From an uncultured Saprospiraceae bacterium (GTDB taxonomy: Bacteria; Bacteroidota; Bacteroidia; Chitinophagales; Saprospiraceae): a stretch of 64,000 nt of DNA. Each line of letters opens with the position of its first letter. Position 1 is the first letter of the stretch. The notes below the pieces were generated by a model that saw only the letters and a program-made list of their open reading frames with translations, made no database searches and was not told the origin of the DNA. Shown in pieces: positions 4,709-53,871 of this stretch. A program made the translations under genes and the position numbers. Location of the stretch: NCBI GenBank assembly GCA_937959275.1, contig CALGLU010000013.1:1-64000 (forward strand), read 5' to 3'.

Positions 4709-5788
4709 ATGATTTACATTGCAGGAATAAGTATAGCTCTCTTTACCTCAGCACTTTTGCTTTTAAAAAAAGACAAGTCAACAGCTGATTATTTCTTGCT
4801 TCTATGGATGCTACTTAATGTGGGGCATTTAGGATTTCATTATTTGAATTTTGTAGGGACTCTGTTTGATTATCCTCAAATTTTGGGGATACAATTGCCT
4901 TTTCCATTATTTCAAGGAGTCGCTTTGTACTTTTATGTTTCCTCAGTAACAAATCAATCGCCCCAACGGAATTGGCATTATTTGTTGCACTTAATTCCTG
5001 CCATTCTAGCCTACCTTTATATGATTAGTTTTTTCACCTTACCTGCAGCAGAAAAAATAGAAATATTCAAACAAAAGGGTGGGGAAGATTATGCTCTGTT
5101 TATGTCGATTTTACAAATCGCTGTATTTGTATCAGGCTTTATTTACGTGGTCTGGTGTAGTTGGCTTCTGATACAACACAAAAAGAATATTACCTCTCAA
5201 TTTTCAGATATTGAAGATATTAGTTTGTCTTGGTTGCAATTTCTCGTTTATGGATTAGGCATTGTCTGGTGTTTTGTCATATTTACTCAGAGTGATGTGA
5301 TCATATATCAAGCCGTGGCGGTTTTTGTGATATTGATTGGTTTTTTTGGCGTACAACAGAAAAACATTTTTAATAAAGTTGAGCAGAGGTTTAAAGAGCC
5401 CCAGGAAATTAAAGTAAAAGAGAAATATCTCAGTTCAGGTTTGTCAGAAGAGAATTCTGATAAACAGTATGAAAAATTAACTCAATTGATGGAGCAAGAT
5501 CAATTGTATAAAAATGCAAATCTCTCTTTGCGTGATTTAGCTAAGGAACTAAATCTACACCCCAATTACCTTTCTCAGATTATAAATGAGAAAGGTGGTG
5601 TTTCGTTCTACGATTATATTAATACCTACAGGGTTGAAGAGTTTAAAAAGCTTATTGAGATCCCAGAGAATAAAAAGTTCACCCTTATGTCCTTGGCCTT
5701 AGATTGTGGCTTCAATTCTAAGTCATCCTTTAATCGGAATTTTAAAAAAATAACGGGTCAGATACCTTCTCAATTCGTCAAAAGGTAG
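4709..5788 (+). CDS. AraC family transcriptional regulator with N-terminal transmembrane domain
   Basis: C-terminal HTH_18 (LSLRDLAKELNLHPNYLSQIINEKGGVSFYDYINTYRVEEF...); N-terminal hydrophobic helices. Confidence 0.9.
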   Translation: MIYIAGISIALFTSALLLLKKDKSTADYFLLLWMLLNVGHLGFHYLNFVGTLFDYPQILGIQLPFPLFQGVALYFYVSSVTNQSPQRNWHYLLHLIPAILAYLYMISFFTLPAAEKIEIFKQKGGEDYALFMSILQIAVFVSGFIYVVWCSWLLIQHKKNITSQFSDIEDISLSWLQFLVYGLGIVWCFVIFTQSDVIIYQAVAVFVILIGFFGVQQKNIFNKVEQRFKEPQEIKVKEKYLSSGLSEENSDKQYEKLTQLMEQDQLYKNANLSLRDLAKELNLHPNYLSQIINEKGGVSFYDYINTYRVEEFKKLIEIPENKKFTLMSLALDCGFNSKSSFNRNFKKITGQIPSQFVKR

Positions 5789-45351: not shown

Positions 45352-46434
45352 TTACCCTTTCATCACTTGCTCCTGCTGGTTGATACTCTCATCATGAATC
45401 GCTCGTAAGAATTTATCTATGAACTCTTCACTTAGACCTTCGGCAGCTCCTTTTTCTTTTGCTGCTTTGGTTAGTTCTTCCCAGCGCTTAGCTTGGTAGA
45501 TGGTGATGTCATTCTTCTTCTTGTAGTCACCAATCTTTCGAGCGACAGACATTCTAGATACCAATAAGTTTAAGATGTCATTGTCTATTTCGTTGATATC
45601 CTGACGAAGGAAGTTTAAGCTATCTTGAGCTGCTACATCACCTTCGCTCATCAATCTAAGCTTCAAATCTGTGATCAATTTACCAAGTACTTCTGGAGTG
45701 ATTTGCTGCTTAGCATCTGTCCAGGCATTGTCAGGATCTCTGTGAGTCTCGATCATAAGACCATCATAACTTAAGTCAACTGCTTTCTGAGAGACATCAG
45801 CCAATAGATCTCTTCGACCACAAATATGACTCGGATCACAGATCATCGGCACTTCTGGACGCTCTTTCATGAAGTCTAAAGCGATTTGCCATTGTGGTCG
45901 ATTCCTATAGACCTTCTCACCAGTATTGGAGAATCCTCTATGGATCACACCAACGTTCTTAATGCCGACTTTTTCAAAACGATCGACTGCTCCTAACCAT
46001 AGCTTCAAATCTGGATTGATTGGATTTTTAACTAATACAGGGACGTCCACACCTCTTAATGCCTCTGCAATCTCTTGGACAGAAAACGGGTTAACAGATG
46101 TCCTCGCGCCAATCCAGATCACGTCTACGCCAAAGGCCAGACACATCTCAGCATGACCTGCTCGTGCAGCCTCGACTGTTATTGGTAATCCTGTCTCCTC
46201 TTTGACCCTCTTCATCCAAGGGAGTCCAGCGACGCCTACACCTTCGAAGTTGCCTGCAGATGTTCGGGGTTTCCAGATGCCTCCACGAAGCATGTCTACT
46301 TTTCCAGTGGCAGCGATCCCTTTACAGGTCTCTACTAATTGCTCTTCAGTCTCGACACTACATGGTCCAGCTATGACAACTGGTGTATCTGTTTTGCGAA
46401 ACCAGTTCGTTTTTGATGATGATTGTGTTTCCAT
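45352..46434 (-). CDS. bifunctional 3-deoxy-7-phosphoheptulonate synthase/chorismate mutase type II
   Basis: VIAGPCSVETEEQL...MLRGGIWKPRTSAGNFEGVG; PMICDPSHICGRRDL; C-terminal chorismate mutase LRQDINEIDNDILNLLVSRMSVARKIGDYKK. Confidence 0.95.
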   Translation of the reverse strand: METQSSSKTNWFRKTDTPVVIAGPCSVETEEQLVETCKGIAATGKVDMLRGGIWKPRTSAGNFEGVGVAGLPWMKRVKEETGLPITVEAARAGHAEMCLAFGVDVIWIGARTSVNPFSVQEIAEALRGVDVPVLVKNPINPDLKLWLGAVDRFEKVGIKNVGVIHRGFSNTGEKVYRNRPQWQIALDFMKERPEVPMICDPSHICGRRDLLADVSQKAVDLSYDGLMIETHRDPDNAWTDAKQQITPEVLGKLITDLKLRLMSEGDVAAQDSLNFLRQDINEIDNDILNLLVSRMSVARKIGDYKKKNDITIYQAKRWEELTKAAKEKGAAEGLSEEFIDKFLRAIHDESINQQEQVMKG

Positions 46435-46462: not shown

Positions 46463-47329
46463 CTAACTTAATTTGACAACGTTTAATTTTAGTCCGTTGA
46501 GTACTCGTTTGATTTCATTTGCCTTTTGCATCAACTCTTTTGATGATACTGTATCACCTTTATCTATGACCTCTTTAAAATGCGTGAGGTGTGTAATGTA
46601 TTTACTTAACGCATCAGATAGATGAATTGAGTTTTTATTAAAAATCGATGACCAGGTTTCTGGATTACTTTTCGCCAACCGAACTGTTGATTCAAAACCT
46701 GTACTTGCAAGATTGAATATTTGTTTTTGATCTTGCTCAATATCTAATACGGTTAATGCCAATGTAAACGCACTGACATGTGACAAGTGTGACACATAAG
46801 CCATATGCTTATCATGAGAATCCGCATCCATAAATAAAGACTGCATGCCTAAATCATTAAAAATCTTCAACACAGATTCCAAGGCATCTTCTGCTACTTT
46901 ATGTTCTTCGCAGATAATATTTTTTTTGTCTCTAAATAAATTTATAATGGCTGCACCTGGTCCTGAAAATTCAGTACCTGCCAAGGGATGCGCTGCTACA
47001 TATCGCTCTCTCTTCTCATGATCACCTAAGGCCTTACATATCTCAGCTTTAGTCGACCCAACATCAAAGACTGTCTGGTTCCATTTTATAGTATTCAATA
47101 AATACAGACTGACCGCTTCAATGGCATCCACGGGAATACAAACAGCAAATACATCTGCCTCTCCAACCGCTTCATCCAAAGCCATCACTGTATCCACTAG
47201 CCCAAAATCAATTGCTTTTTCTTGATGCTGTACATTATCATCCACCCCGATAACAGTATAGCCTAGCTGTCTACATTCCTTGGCGATTGACCCACCTATT
47301 AATCCTAGTCCAATGACAGCTAGCTTCAT
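46463..47329 (-). CDS. tyrA: prephenate dehydrogenase
   Basis: KLAVIGLGLIGGSIAKECRQLGY; AHPLAGTEFSGPGAA; SHLSHVSAFTLAL. Confidence 0.94.
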   Translation of the reverse strand: MKLAVIGLGLIGGSIAKECRQLGYTVIGVDDNVQHQEKAIDFGLVDTVMALDEAVGEADVFAVCIPVDAIEAVSLYLLNTIKWNQTVFDVGSTKAEICKALGDHEKRERYVAAHPLAGTEFSGPGAAIINLFRDKKNIICEEHKVAEDALESVLKIFNDLGMQSLFMDADSHDKHMAYVSHLSHVSAFTLALTVLDIEQDQKQIFNLASTGFESTVRLAKSNPETWSSIFNKNSIHLSDALSKYITHLTHFKEVIDKGDTVSSKELMQKANEIKRVLNGLKLNVVKLS

Positions 47330-48519
47330 AGTAAAACAGTCGATTTTTTGGTTTGTAAATAGCTGCTAACTCGTTGTATCGCAGAGTCTAATATCTCTAC
47401 CGAACTACAGAGCGCTATACGTATATATCGATCTCCGTTACTACCAAAAATAAACCCAGGAGTAATAAAGACCAGAGATTCTTGTAGAATGTCTTCTATC
47501 CAATGCTCAACATTCATCACATGCTCAGGTACTGATCCCCACACAAATAAGCCAGCAGATTCTTTGTCACATGCGCAGCCTAATAAGTCCATCAGCTGCC
47601 AGGCTTTCTCTCGTCGTTTTTCATATATAGCATTTAAGTGATCAAACCACTCCTGCTCTAGACTTAGTGCTTTTACAGCAGCTAGTTGTATTGGTTTGTA
47701 CATGCCTGAATCCATATTGGATTTGAATTTCATCACAGCATCTATGTATGCTGACTTGCCAACCATGACACCGACTCGCCATCCAGCCATATTAAAGCAT
47801 TTACTCAATGAATTTAATTCAATGGCAACATCTTTAGCTCCTGGTACTTGCATGATACTAATCGGATTGTCATTCAGAATAAATCCATATGGATTATCAT
47901 GACAAATTAAAATTTCATGTGCTTTGCCAAAGGCGACAAGCTCTTCAAAAAGAGCTGCATCTGCGTGTTGGCCAGTCGGCATATTCGGATAGTTAACCCA
48001 CATGATTTTAACCTTGCTCAAATCCTGTTTTGCTAATGCTTGTAGATCAGGTTTCCAATGATTAGCAGCAGTCAGGTCAAAGTTTCTGACAGTAGCTCCG
48101 GCTAATTTGCTCGCCATGCGATACGCAGGGTAGCCAGGATTTGGCACTAAGACCTCATCGCCTTCATTTAGAAAACTCATCGAAATATGCATGATCCCTT
48201 CCTTCGAACCAATCAATGGTAATACTTCTGAGCTAAAGTCGAGATCAACAGCAAACCATCTTTGATACCAGGATGCGAACGCTTGGCGCAATGCAGGAAT
48301 ACCTTTATAACTTTGATACTTATTTGCAACAGCATCTTTAGTACCGTCTTTGAGCGCTTGCAGAATGTCATCTGGTGGACTCAAGTCAGGACTGCCTATG
48401 CCCAGATTAATCACGTCTTTACCCATCTGCTGCATGGCAGCAATTTGTGCCAGTTTTGTGGCAAAGTAGTAGGTCTTAACTAGACCGATCCTATGCGATG
48501 GTTTGATGATCATAAACAC
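47326..48519 (-). CDS. pyridoxal phosphate-dependent aminotransferase class I/II (aromatic operon)
   Basis: NLGIGSPDLSPP, NPGYPAYRMA, ELNSLSKCFNMAGWRVGVMVG; ATGA overlap with tyrA; true start may be M3. Confidence 0.93.
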   Translation of the reverse strand: MFMIIKPSHRIGLVKTYYFATKLAQIAAMQQMGKDVINLGIGSPDLSPPDDILQALKDGTKDAVANKYQSYKGIPALRQAFASWYQRWFAVDLDFSSEVLPLIGSKEGIMHISMSFLNEGDEVLVPNPGYPAYRMASKLAGATVRNFDLTAANHWKPDLQALAKQDLSKVKIMWVNYPNMPTGQHADAALFEELVAFGKAHEILICHDNPYGFILNDNPISIMQVPGAKDVAIELNSLSKCFNMAGWRVGVMVGKSAYIDAVMKFKSNMDSGMYKPIQLAAVKALSLEQEWFDHLNAIYEKRREKAWQLMDLLGCACDKESAGLFVWGSVPEHVMNVEHWIEDILQESLVFITPGFIFGSNGDRYIRIALCSSVEILDSAIQRVSSYLQTKKSTVLL

Positions 48520-49351
48520 TTGCTTTTTTGTAGGTTCCTAATTCTTTTAATTCTAGGGTAACAGACGGTAGGTATTCCATAATCGCCTCATATTGACCGA
48601 TATCCGTAAATTCTAAATCGAGATAGAAATAGTATTCACTTACTTTACCTACGACGGGGTAGGACTGTAACTTGCTAATATTGACATCGTGTTCAGAGAT
48701 TTTGTTCAGCACTTTTAATAGACAGCCAGGCTGATCTAAAACCCTGAGATATATCGAGGCTTTATCAAATACACCTGTTGGTATTTGTTGATTCTTCCCA
48801 TGTAAAATAAAGAATCTAGTATAATTTATTTTTGACGTTTCTATGCTTTCAGCCAGTATCTCTAAGCCGTAAATCTTGGCAGCCACTTGACTGGCGATCG
48901 CACCTCTAGTTTCTTTTTGTTTGTCCGCTACATATTTAGCAGAGAGTGCTGTATCCTCACTTTTGACAAGCTTGATATGCGGGTGATTGCTAAAGAAATG
49001 TAGACACTGGTTAATGGCCATTGGATGCGAACTCACTTGTTTGAGGTCCTCGATCTTGGTTCCTGGCAAAGCCATTAGATTGTGCTTTATACGTAGAAAA
49101 ACTTCACCAACGACTCTGAACTCTCGCTCTCGGAGTATTCTATAGTTTTGCAATATACTTCCAGCGATAGAGTTTTCGATCGCCATGATAGCTATATGGT
49201 CCTCCTCATTCTGTTCTAATATATCGGCTAACATATCAAATGAGTCAGATGGCACAATGGATGTATCGTCTGATTGAAAGTACTTTTGAGCTGCTTCCTC
49301 GTGGAAACACCCTGGATAACCCTGAACAATGATTTTCTTGTCAATGCACAT
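48491..49351 (-). CDS. pheA: prephenate dehydratase
   Basis: VQGYPGCFHEEAAQKYF; MAIENSIAGSILQNYRIL; ACT domain with GCLLKVLNKISEHDVNISKLQSYPV. Confidence 0.94.
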   Translation of the reverse strand: MCIDKKIIVQGYPGCFHEEAAQKYFQSDDTSIVPSDSFDMLADILEQNEEDHIAIMAIENSIAGSILQNYRILREREFRVVGEVFLRIKHNLMALPGTKIEDLKQVSSHPMAINQCLHFFSNHPHIKLVKSEDTALSAKYVADKQKETRGAIASQVAAKIYGLEILAESIETSKINYTRFFILHGKNQQIPTGVFDKASIYLRVLDQPGCLLKVLNKISEHDVNISKLQSYPVVGKVSEYYFYLDLEFTDIGQYEAIMEYLPSVTLELKELGTYKKASVYDHQTIA

Positions 49352-49363
49352 AAAAAACTATTT

Positions 49364-49404
49364 AAAAGCAAAAGGAGCCCTTATTTTTCAATAAGGACTC
49401 CTTT
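49364..49404 (-). terminator. Attenuator terminator in the pheA leader
   Basis: Minus strand AAAGGAGTCCTTATT-GAAA-AATAAGGGCTCCTTT then TGCTTTT: 15-bp stem with one G-U pair, 4-nt GNRA-type loop, interrupted U-tract. Confidence 0.85.
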
Positions 49405-49438
49405 GTTATATTTATCTTTTAAGACAACAAGATCCCTA

Positions 49439-49495
49439 TTACTCTTGGCTAAAGTAATAGAAGTAAAAATAGTTGCTAAAAGAATACTGTTTCAT
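49439..49495 (-). CDS. Phe/Tyr-rich 18-aa leader peptide of the aromatic amino-acid operon
   Basis: ATGAAACAGTATTCTTTTAGCAACTATTTTTACTTCTATTACTTTAGCCAAGAGTAA = MKQYSFSNYFYFYYFSQE*; 4 Phe and 5 Tyr of 18. Confidence 0.88.
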   Translation of the reverse strand: MKQYSFSNYFYFYYFSQE

Positions 49496-49505
49496 AATCG
49501 TATAT

Positions 49506-49536
49506 CAAAGCTATAGTTATTATTGAGAATATCAAA
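49506..49536 (-). promoter_or_regulatory. Bacteroidota-type primary sigma promoter of the pheA operon
   Basis: Minus strand TTTG-N19-TAGCTTTG, exact match to TTTG/N19-21/TAnnTTTG. Confidence 0.75.
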
Positions 49537-49695: not shown

Positions 49696-52600
49696 ATGAA
49701 TATTTACTCTACTACCCTTAACTCTACTAAGAAAGGAATAATTTTCTTTTTCATATTAGCGTCATGTCTACACACCCAATCAGCTTTAAGTCAATGCACA
49801 GGTGAGCTCGTTACTGGAGTTGGGAGCTACTATTCTCATTCAGGAGTCAGTGCGGTGCCATCTTTTGCCGCTGGAGAACCAGATGGACGGTTTTCTGGTA
49901 AGATAAGCGAAAAGGACTATTTGGCCTTACGGATTCCCATACATCCAGCAGTTGATTATACAGGTGAAATTTGTATTACTGTAGGCTTCAATAAGCCAGG
50001 TGGTATTGTCAATTTTACAGTTGGAGAAGAGTCTCATTCCTTTAAAAATGTAGCCTTTGATACAACACGACGGCCACAAGAGTTTTGTTTCGACTATTCC
50101 GTATCGAAAGCAGCAATCGTTTATATAACAGAGTCAGGACAGGGAGATGTGTTAGTTGATGGTTCTAGATATGCTATGTGTATATCGTGCGGAGATGACT
50201 ATGAAGATTCTGATTTTGATGGTATTTGTGATCCAGCGGATTTTTATCCAGGGTTTGATAATTCACGACTAGGCAGTCCGTGTGATGATGGAAATGAGAG
50301 TACTTCAAATGATAGACAAGAGGGTGCCAATCAGTGTAGAGGTGCAGGACAGATTGTGATCAATGAGGTTTTTGTTTCAGGCTTTAATGGAAGTGAAATA
50401 TTCGATCATGGTTTTAAGATTAGTGATTGGATTGAAGTGTTTAATGGGACTGGTGCTGTGATTGATCTGGCGGGGTGGTATCTAAGTGACTCTAAAGGGT
50501 CAAAGAAAAAATGGCAAATTCCGAGTGGTACTATTCCTGCAAATGGGTATCGTGTGTTTTATGCGAATGGTCTGGATGACTCCAATGTGAATACTAATTT
50601 TAAACTGGATCAAAGTGAGTTGACAGAGGAGGTTTTATTGACAGATGCATCAGGGACGATTGTTGATGAATATAGTATTGAAGCATTTACTCAAATCGGT
50701 CATAGCCGTGGCAGAGCATTTGATGGGTCTGATGACTGGGCAGTATTTGCGACACCAAGTCCTAGTGCGACTAACCTGATAGCTTCAGATTATGCACCTT
50801 ATCCAGACATCGATATGGAGTCTGGGGCGTATCCATCTCAAATCAGTGTTAGCCTAACTGTACCTACAGGTTTTACTGCTCGATACGAATTAAATACAGG
50901 GACAAATACTACAGGGCAGGTGTTAGACCCAACTGCAACAAGTACCGCCTACACAAGTCCAATTACAATTGCAAATACGACAAGTTTAAAAGTTAGATTA
51001 TTCGATGATGCTGGTATATTATTGCCAGGCTTTATAGAAACGAATACCTATTTAATAAATGAAAACCACACGATGTATACCTTGTCAGTCACAGGTAAAA
51101 AGAATATCCTTGATTTAGTCAATGGAGATATTGATTTATATCCAATGGCGCACATGGAGATTTTTGATGAGACAGGTCAATTGATCACAGAGGTAGCTGG
51201 TAATTTGAACAAGCATGGACAAGACAGTTGGCAATATCCACATCGAGGTTTTGATATTTTTGCACGGGATGAAGTTGGATATGGAGGAAGTATGAATCAT
51301 AAATTCTTTGAGAAAAAGGATCGACAGGAGTTTGATCGATTTATTATTAGAGCAGCGGGAGATGATAATTATCCTTATGAAAATGGTGGAGCACATGTCA
51401 GAGATGCCTTTGTGCAGGAATGGGGATTTGAATCTGGTTTGGAGATGGACCACAGGAGTTATCGACCCTGTGTAGTGTATTTGAATGGTAAATATTGGGG
51501 AGTCTATGAAATTCGTGAAAAGGTAGTTCATAAGTCATTTACCAGAGCTTATTTTAATCAGGATGAAGAGGACTTAGATTATATCAGTTATTGGGGTGGC
51601 AGGACGATTCGATATGGAAGTCCAGCTGATTGGGATGCAGTTATCGGTTATATAAATACAAACGACATGGGTAATGCTGCTCATTTTAAGCACGTTGATG
51701 ATCGTGTCAATCTACTAAGCTGGACAGACTATGTGTTGTTTAATAATTATATTGTTTCAAAAGATTGGAATAATTATAACTCAGCTTGGTGGAGAGGAAG
51801 GAATCCAGATGGAGGTGCTCAAAAGTGGCGATTTATATTGTGGGATATGGATGCCTCATTTGGACATTATATCAATTATAGTAATGTGCCTGATGAAAGT
51901 CCAAGTGCCTCACCATGTGATGTGCTGGACAACTCGCCAATTGATGATCCAGAATACTTACTCAGTTCTTTTGAAAAAATATTTGACCAAAATTCCGACT
52001 TTAGAAATCTGGTAGCCAATCGCTATAATGATATGTTGAATACCTATTGGAGTTGTGATTTTTCTATTCCATTACTGGATGCCATGGTGAATGAAAAAGC
52101 ACCTGAAATGGCAAGGCAGTTTGCCAGATGGGCAGGTAATGAAGCAACTTGGCAATCAAATGTCCAGGATATCAGAGACTTTTTGAATGACCGTTGTGAT
52201 GTGATCGACGCTGAATTAAATTTATGTCTTGATCTAGGTAGAAGAGCTGGTATTACATTTAATACAAATCCTCCCAATATACTTGCTAGTATAAAAACGA
52301 ATACAATCGTGCTGCCAGACTTACCTTTGACAGGGGATTATTATACAAACTTACCTGTACAATTAGAAGCCATAGAAAGTTTCCACTATGAATTTTCTCA
52401 CTGGGAATCAACGACAGGAATCATTCTTTCAGATTTCACGACAGAACAAACAATATTGAATCCAGGTAAGAGTGGAGATATAACAGCGCATTATAATTTT
52501 GTGCCAGGCAAAGAAATGGCGATCAATGAGATTCATTATAATCCAGTCGATGAGATTCTTTTACACCCTATCACGAATCAAATGGATACAATTGATGGCC

Positions 52601-53871
52601 ATAATTTTGAATTCATTGAATTTAAAAATAGCGGAACTGCTCCTATTGATTTATACAATATTGAATTTACAAAAGGATTAGATTTTAGATTTACAGAATC
52701 TCAAATTGTGATGCCAGGTGATTTCGTGGTGCTTGCCGATGATAGCTTATGGTTTCATACCAAATATGGATTCGCTCCTGACGGTGTGTACATTGGAGAA
52801 TTGGATAATAGTGGAGAGCGATTATTTGTAGAAACACAATTAGACATAGTGGACTCGTTGACCTATAATGACAAAGGAGATTGGCCTGGTACGGCAGATA
52901 AGGGTTATTATAGTGTGGCCCTGAAGGATGCTTCTCTTGATAATAATGATCCAGCAAACTGGGGGATACAATCTGTATTGACAACACCTGGCGAGGAAAA
53001 CATTTTTGTTGATTTGGGAGAACATGGTTATTCTGGTGTCGTCATTAATGAGATTCATTATAATCCATTTGATAGTATTGATGCTATTTCTGGAGATACG
53101 ATCGGTGGCACAAAATTCGAATTTGTTGAACTCAAAAACATTGGGTCTGTCCCAATTAATTTATCGGGTAGCTTTTTTGCCCGCGGCGTGGACTACGTGT
53201 TTGCTCCAGGTACGATTTTACAATCTGGCGATTATTTAGTACTGGCAGATGATAAGTCGTCCTTCCAGGATAGATACGGCTTCGCTCCTTTTGATAAATA
53301 TGACGGTAAATTGGATAACGGCAGTGAAACATTGTGGCTTGTCAATCCAGATGGTATTCTTTTAGATGCTGTTACGTATGACGATGATGCACCGTGGGAT
53401 GTGAGTGCAGATGGTGGTGACCACGATTATAGTTTAGCCTTGATAGATCCTAATGTAGATAATGATGATCCAGCTAATTGGCAACGACAGTGTAGCCAAC
53501 TATGGACGCCTGCTGCTGATAATAATTTTGCTGCGAGCACATGTGATTGTCTTAATGCCATTATCCCTGATGCCGATAATGATGGGGTGTGTGATGAAAA
53601 TGATCAATGTCCAGGCGCTGATGATACAGTTGATGTGAATGGAAATGGTATCCCAGATGCATGTGAAAATTGTGTCAACGATATTGTCGAACTGTCCATG
53701 ACTGACATTCAATCAGATGCAGCTGCTAATTTCACAATTCAGACAAATGGCGCGGTTCGATCAGGAAAGGTGATTGAATATCATGCTGGGCTGAATGTCC
53801 AGCTTATGGAAGGCTTTGAAGTGGAAGCTGCGGCGGTATTTCATGCTCATATTGCGCTGTGCGATGAGTAA
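49696..53871 (+). CDS. secreted CotH kinase family protein with lamin tail domains and C-terminal 3-coathanger-like domain
   Basis: CotH-like FNKHGQDSWQYPHRGFDIFARDE...WRFILWDMDASFGHY; LTD repeats IVINEVFVSGFNGSE..., MAINEIHYNPVDE..., VVINEIHYNPFDS... Confidence 0.9.
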   Translation: MNIYSTTLNSTKKGIIFFFILASCLHTQSALSQCTGELVTGVGSYYSHSGVSAVPSFAAGEPDGRFSGKISEKDYLALRIPIHPAVDYTGEICITVGFNKPGGIVNFTVGEESHSFKNVAFDTTRRPQEFCFDYSVSKAAIVYITESGQGDVLVDGSRYAMCISCGDDYEDSDFDGICDPADFYPGFDNSRLGSPCDDGNESTSNDRQEGANQCRGAGQIVINEVFVSGFNGSEIFDHGFKISDWIEVFNGTGAVIDLAGWYLSDSKGSKKKWQIPSGTIPANGYRVFYANGLDDSNVNTNFKLDQSELTEEVLLTDASGTIVDEYSIEAFTQIGHSRGRAFDGSDDWAVFATPSPSATNLIASDYAPYPDIDMESGAYPSQISVSLTVPTGFTARYELNTGTNTTGQVLDPTATSTAYTSPITIANTTSLKVRLFDDAGILLPGFIETNTYLINENHTMYTLSVTGKKNILDLVNGDIDLYPMAHMEIFDETGQLITEVAGNLNKHGQDSWQYPHRGFDIFARDEVGYGGSMNHKFFEKKDRQEFDRFIIRAAGDDNYPYENGGAHVRDAFVQEWGFESGLEMDHRSYRPCVVYLNGKYWGVYEIREKVVHKSFTRAYFNQDEEDLDYISYWGGRTIRYGSPADWDAVIGYINTNDMGNAAHFKHVDDRVNLLSWTDYVLFNNYIVSKDWNNYNSAWWRGRNPDGGAQKWRFILWDMDASFGHYINYSNVPDESPSASPCDVLDNSPIDDPEYLLSSFEKIFDQNSDFRNLVANRYNDMLNTYWSCDFSIPLLDAMVNEKAPEMARQFARWAGNEATWQSNVQDIRDFLNDRCDVIDAELNLCLDLGRRAGITFNTNPPNILASIKTNTIVLPDLPLTGDYYTNLPVQLEAIESFHYEFSHWESTTGIILSDFTTEQTILNPGKSGDITAHYNFVPGKEMAINEIHYNPVDEILLHPITNQMDTIDGHNFEFIEFKNSGTAPIDLYNIEFTKGLDFRFTESQIVMPGDFVVLADDSLWFHTKYGFAPDGVYIGELDNSGERLFVETQLDIVDSLTYNDKGDWPGTADKGYYSVALKDASLDNNDPANWGIQSVLTTPGEENIFVDLGEHGYSGVVINEIHYNPFDSIDAISGDTIGGTKFEFVELKNIGSVPINLSGSFFARGVDYVFAPGTILQSGDYLVLADDKSSFQDRYGFAPFDKYDGKLDNGSETLWLVNPDGILLDAVTYDDDAPWDVSADGGDHDYSLALIDPNVDNDDPANWQRQCSQLWTPAADNNFAASTCDCLNAIIPDADNDGVCDENDQCPGADDTVDVNGNGIPDACENCVNDIVELSMTDIQSDAAANFTIQTNGAVRSGKVIEYHAGLNVQLMEGFEVEAAAVFHAHIALCDE

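Follow-up and report, generated by a model that had tools for sequence, protein, structure and literature searches.

Leader-peptide attenuation is textbook knowledge in Proteobacteria and is poorly documented in Bacteroidota. In Escherichia coli, the pheL leader is rich in Phe, has no Tyr and serves a gene of the Phe branch, while other enterobacterial attenuators read several amino acids at once, as do those of thr (Thr and Ile) and ilvGMEDA (Ile, Val and Leu); a comparative survey of attenuation was reportedly made by Lopatovskaya et al. in 2010. The locus described here lies on a 64,000-nt stretch of DNA (the window) from an uncultured Saprospiraceae bacterium. With E. coli pheA (pheL) it has in common a short ORF of aromatic codons, the logic of strands 1, 2, 3 and 4, and a terminator just 5' of pheA, but its leader interleaves Phe and Tyr codons, precedes genes of both branches and is predicted to be nearly leaderless. 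With thr and ilvGMEDA it would share the use of one leader peptide to sense several end products of one operon, although the amino acids are different, the sequences are unrelated and the phylum is another.

Within the same phylum, a putative attenuator from Merino's database has been listed for the Bacteroides thetaiotaomicron operon pheA > hisHb > aroA-aroQ > tyrA (PMC1173090, Table 7, 2005). The operon is homologous and the position is the same but, in the accessible part of that paper, the entry is a structural prediction, given without a leader peptide, sensed amino acids or a mechanism. A transcriptome of Flavobacterium psychrophilum published in 2021 contains a transcribed structured element 5' of pheA, conserved in Flavobacteriaceae and without an Rfam match, and speaks of 'strong clues' that amino-acid operons are attenuated through leader peptides (PMC9723704); the accessible text of this account gives neither a leader sequence nor a specificity for Phe and Tyr, and does not connect codons with the genes of the operon. 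A preliminary description of the window, made from its letters, had been unsure of precedents in Bacteroidota, and the Bacteroides listing of 2005 (PMC1173090) supplies one. As far as the accessible parts of these sources go, attenuators before Bacteroidota pheA had thus already been listed, and the suggestion that the mixed sensor is novel stands: the open literature yielded no account of a mixed Phe and Tyr leader or of a tie between such a leader and the genes of its operon, most subscription papers lying outside the search, and both features are apparently new within that scope. At the gathering score, no Rfam family was matched anywhere in the 64,000-nt window, so there is no T-box or riboswitch match, and the Phe_leader family (RF01859) reached, at a relaxed threshold, 17.2 bits where 55 are required (E = 1.8), so the element is not a member.

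Anatomy and folding of the pheA leader

The elements of the locus, with the evidence on which each was placed, are as follows.

49533-49536, minus strand: -33 promoter box, TTTG (sequence)
49506-49513, minus strand: -7 promoter box, TAGCTTTG (TAnnTTTG), 10 nt 5' of the leader ATG (sequence)
49439-49495, minus strand: leader ORF, MKQYSFSNYFYFYYFSQE and stop codon, with control run Y9-F15 (sequence, shuffle test, stall scan)
49434-49462, minus strand: 1:2 hairpin, F12-F15 codons paired with the stop-codon region (folding of ribosome-free RNA)
49433-49440, minus strand: strand 2, AATAGGGA, 5' half of the antiterminator, beginning within the stop codon (sequence, duplex test, folding)
49390-49397, minus strand: strand 3, TCCTTATT, common to antiterminator and terminator (sequence, folding)
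49371-49404, minus strand: terminator hairpin, 15 bp, GAAA loop (sequence, folding)
49364-49373, minus strand: interrupted U-tract, TTTTGCTTTT, overlapping the foot of the hairpin (sequence)
48491-49351, minus strand: pheA, prephenate dehydratase (PF00800, E = 1e-53; weak ACT match)
47326-48519, minus strand: class I/II aminotransferase, overlapping the end of pheA (PF00155, E = 3e-54)
46463-47329, minus strand: tyrA, prephenate dehydrogenase (PF02153 and PF20463; NF006307 above cut-off)
45352-46434, minus strand: DAHP synthase fused to chorismate mutase (PF00793 and PF01817)

The domain matches agree with the four-gene operon first proposed, which starts with pheA at 49351 and continues through the aminotransferase and tyrA to the DAHP synthase/chorismate mutase. 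The promoter TTTG-N19-TAGCTTTG claimed at 49536-49506 is likewise present on the minus strand, with TTTG at 49536-49533, a spacer of 19 nt and the second box at 49513-49506; the -33/-7 spacing is of the Bacteroidota type. For the leader ORF, the earlier count of nine aromatic residues in 18 holds, but the aromatic run, given as six residues (FYFYYF), is in fact an uninterrupted run of seven, YFYFYYF. This control run, Y9-F15, consists of three Phe and four Tyr codons, interleaved, so that the locus has a short ORF with a run of codons for the amino acids that its operon produces. Not one of 5000 dinucleotide shuffles of the window's upstream region yielded a short ORF with eight aromatic residues in 10 codons.

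Between the leader and pheA lies an intrinsic terminator, the 15-bp hairpin with its GAAA loop at 49404-49371 and the interrupted U-tract both being present as first described. The pairing of AATAGGGA (49440-49433) with TCCTTATT (49397-49390) over 8 bp, one of them G-U, was also borne out by the sequence, and this antiterminator is mutually exclusive with the terminator. The folding of the leader region that had been suggested as a check gave these two exclusive pairings, the RNA from leader to terminator having a folding energy of -40.7 kcal/mol, compared with -23.8 ± 3.2 kcal/mol in dinucleotide-shuffled sequences (z = -5.3; none of 200 folded as well), and the duplex of strands 2 and 3 an energy of -11.3 kcal/mol (P = 0.015). 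In ribosome-free RNA the folding also revealed a 12-bp 1:2 hairpin, missed in the preliminary description, in which the F12-F15 codons (49462-49451) pair with 49445-49434. Once strand 4 has been transcribed, the terminator is thermodynamically favoured over the 2:3 duplex, and the switch must therefore be kinetic. The interruption of the U-tract may make termination leaky; in L001, the nearest relative, the T run that follows the hairpin is unbroken.

Ribosome position and the proposed switch

With a ribosome placed at each codon of the leader in turn, the uncovered RNA was folded as far as the end of strand 3, the edge of the footprint being set at +10 nt. The mean probability of 2:3 pairing was 0.76-0.94 with the A site at Y9-F15, compared with 0.36-0.39 at codons 3-8, 0.04 at Q17 and 0 at E18 and the stop codon; in ribosome-free RNA it was 0.01, and the terminator formed. 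The pattern was kept with footprint edges from +9 to +12 nt, the values moving slightly at the ends of the aromatic run only. Since pairing is high exactly at Y9-F15, the permissive window is the aromatic run itself and, as it holds both Phe and Tyr codons, the operon should be released when either of the two amino acids is scarce. The logic originally assumed, in which strand 2 is freed by stalling on the control codons and masked by a ribosome at the stop codon, was reproduced in silico by the scans of the window and of 122 loci.

We conclude that the element is very probably a ribosome-mediated transcription attenuator sensing charged tRNA-Phe and tRNA-Tyr together; the leader-peptide reading advanced in the preliminary description draws support from the anatomy, the ribosome-position logic and the wide conservation. 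On the predictions for transcription start, termination in vivo and response to starvation that the sequence allows, transcription would begin a few bases 5' of the leader ATG. When both Phe and Tyr are abundant, the ribosome would pass Y9-F15, reach the stop codon and cover AATAGGGA, leaving strand 3 to pair with strand 4, and RNA polymerase would halt before pheA. When Phe or Tyr is short, the A site of the stalled ribosome would be occupied by one of the Phe or Tyr codons interleaved in Y9-F15, strand 2 would lie just beyond the ribosome's leading edge and pair with strand 3, and the operon would be transcribed. On a leader free of ribosomes, strand 2 would be tied up in the 1:2 hairpin and the terminator would form.

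Tyrosine codons and operon content

Loci of pheA were drawn from genome collections covering Saprospiraceae, Flavobacteriaceae, Crocinitomicaceae, Marinifilum, many other Bacteroidota and two Lentisphaerota, and an operon was classed as shared when one or more of the genes for the aminotransferase, TyrA and DAHP synthase came after pheA (final set, n = 193). The preliminary description had named a comparison of pheA upstream regions in relatives as a result that could overturn it; in the event, an aromatic leader and terminator were present at 172 of the 193 shared-operon loci, in Bacteroidota and Lentisphaerota. The module was undetected at the other 21, in part because of detection thresholds. 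Loci L092, L093, L011, L088 and L200, among others, are shared aromatic operons without an aromatic leader and terminator by the criteria used. Among pheA homologues of other classes (approximately 31-40% identity, no aromatic genes downstream), no such leader was found.

Each of the 172 leaders of shared operons has Tyr beside Phe, and in 169 of them the Tyr codons number at least two. Lone pheA genes within the group often retain the attenuator but, by contrast, mostly lack Tyr in it: in 21 leaders that precede pheA alone, the control window holds no Tyr in 18 and one in three, and Trp in none. The claim of a mixed Phe and Tyr sensor is thereby supported, but not as a peculiarity of the window's genome: it is the rule across Bacteroidota. 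Marinifilum breve has pheA alone, with the leader MRTIFSFSFIFSFFFFGDEKDRILMV, while its aminotransferase-tyrA-DAHP synthase-aroB-aroA operon is preceded by two leaders of F/Y/W type and a WWW leader stands before its trpE operon. The same contrast between the lone-pheA leader and that of the separate operon is seen in four further split genomes (G410, G420, G430 and G487; the lone-pheA leader of G487 has one Tyr, near its start), the separate tyrA/DAHP synthase operons of split genomes bearing leaders with both Phe and Tyr. Another lineage with lone pheA (L348) has the leader MITVNTIRFFFYFKMEA, with a single Tyr.

The lone-pheA state arose at least four to five times, five changes being needed on the PheA tree, of which four are forced by supported branches. 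In the four supported independent pairs, Tyr is absent, as expected, in about three and numbers at most one in about all four, with none in the opposite direction; the phylogenetically strict test gives p = 0.125-0.5, four pairs being insufficient to bring a formal P under 0.05. These comparisons suggest that the codon content of the leader follows the genes controlled, Tyr codons dropping out when pheA leaves the shared operon, and such losses form a natural experiment that ties sensor codons to regulated genes. Trp was considered as a third general signal and was set aside as optional, occurring in the control window of just 40 of the 172 shared leaders.

The same comparison bears on the possibility that Phe alone is sensed, and that the Tyr codons are neutral filler or serve the needs of the RNA, UAU and UAC aiding the 1:2 pairing. 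The window's F12-F15 codons do form strand 1 of the hairpin, pheA is the first gene of the operon, and classical pheA attenuators are Phe-only. Nevertheless, we consider this improbable, because every shared-operon leader has Tyr and the lone-pheA leaders, whose RNA is organized in the same way, have one Tyr at most, because strand 1:2 pairing is not conserved, and because the separate tyrA/DAHP synthase operons of the same genomes likewise have leaders with Phe and Tyr. For joint sensing of Phe and Tyr, the wider picture towards which we lean, by a small margin over doubt, is of phylum-wide aromatic attenuation, with a leaderless or near-leaderless leader ORF in Saprospiraceae and Chitinophagaceae, in which each split of pheA retunes its leader from Phe and Tyr to mainly Phe, the separate tyrA/DAHP synthase operon keeps a leader with Phe and Tyr (and sometimes Trp), and some lineages stack two attenuators for the same signal.

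Register, lineage variation and serial modules

Across 122 homologous leaders, the 2:3 duplex averages -12.6 kcal/mol, compared with -5.8 kcal/mol for shuffles, and is significant (P ≤ 0.05) in 109. The pairing cores vary by lineage, examples being AGGACT/AGTCCT, CGAGAC/GTCTCG and GCCGGGA/TCCCGGC, and strands 2, 3 and 4 co-vary so as to stay matched. The distance from the last aromatic codon to strand 2 has a median of 11 nt (interquartile range 9-13), as expected if a stalled ribosome just clears strand 2. When strand 2 was placed by pairing alone, codons at positions -5 to -2, counted relative to the last permissive one, were aromatic in 92-95% of cases, compared with 6% at +1 and 1% at +2, and the stop codon was non-permissive in 120 of 121 leaders. 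The drop past the boundary is partly compositional, because U-rich codons cannot pair with a G+C-rich arm, but composition leaves the narrow distribution of the gap unexplained. The register of aromatic run and strand 2 is thus, like the sequence elements, their conservation and the exclusive pairings, shown by the sequence comparisons and folding. A 1:2 pause hairpin conserved across the family was unsupported (24 of 122 homologues at P ≤ 0.05).

A nascent-peptide arrest sensor resembling TnaC, in which free Phe or Tyr, and not codon starvation, causes the aromatic peptide to stall the ribosome, would have a similar geometry, and strongly aromatic peptides could indeed touch the exit tunnel. 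The leader peptides, however, have no obvious conserved residues beyond their aromatic density, F, Y and W interchange, and the codons immediately after the run are variable; moreover, stalling at an excess of Phe or Tyr would induce the operon in excess, the wrong sign for biosynthesis, and we regard this explanation as very improbable. A reading of the hairpin as a plain terminator, or as an element for mRNA stability, beside a chance or unrelated small ORF is barely credible, for all that the U-tract is imperfect and short ORFs are common in AT-rich DNA, given the shuffle test of aromatic density, the recurrence of the ORF and hairpin together at 172 loci, the fixed register of run and strand 2, and the orientation of the upstream gene (49696-53871), which lies on the strand opposite to the pheA operon, so that no minus-strand gene needs a terminator here.

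A TAnnTTTG box was found 5' of 81 of the 122 homologous leaders, compared with 7.7 expected. Its spacing to the leader ATG is 4-11 nt in most of the Saprospiraceae and other loci of the same family or order that have the box, and 15-30 nt in most of the remaining loci, outside that family and order. The very short distance in the window (49513-49495; 10 nt) thus has counterparts in related families. In promoters of this type, transcription starts approximately 4-6 nt 3' of the motif; if it does so here, the leader would be leaderless or nearly so in the window's lineage, as the preliminary description had suspected for the window, and we predict a transcription start a few bases 5' of the leader ATG, with a near-leaderless leader transcript. 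Bacteroidota largely do without Shine-Dalgarno pairing, and a conserved switch at the branch point of aromatic synthesis, easy to handle in experiments, would allow the coupling of transcription to translation, and leaderless initiation, to be tested cleanly in the phylum.

In two Lentisphaerota (L028 and L035), pheA resembles that of Bacteroidota and is preceded by an aromatic leader and by the same attenuator in a G+C-rich version. Their PheA sequences are placed among those of Bacteroidota in the PheA tree which, together with the shared attenuator, suggests transfer of the whole unit.

The window has one module, but at least 27 related loci have two complete modules (leader, antiterminator and terminator) in series, the second antiterminator being no better than shuffles in some of the 27. 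Examples of tandem Phe/Tyr modules are those of L161 (5' of the aminotransferase at 4755), L219, L326, L337 and L340, with 22 others. Salmonella mgtCBR carries two leader ORFs with serial attenuators on one mRNA, sensing ATP and proline (PMC3641672); the arrangement is serial in both cases but the mgtCBR signals differ from each other, whereas here both modules look specific for Phe and Tyr. In the window's own genome (L253), approximately 70-172 nt 5' of trpE, there is a short ORF ending in MKLTINIWWWCSLEPDSGV, with three consecutive Trp codons, and a terminator hairpin, probably a Trp attenuator. A leader beginning MFGLNSKYWWWHICNLSNTMSG and a long terminator hairpin likewise lie upstream of trpE in Marinifilum breve (L161, minus strand, 3809).
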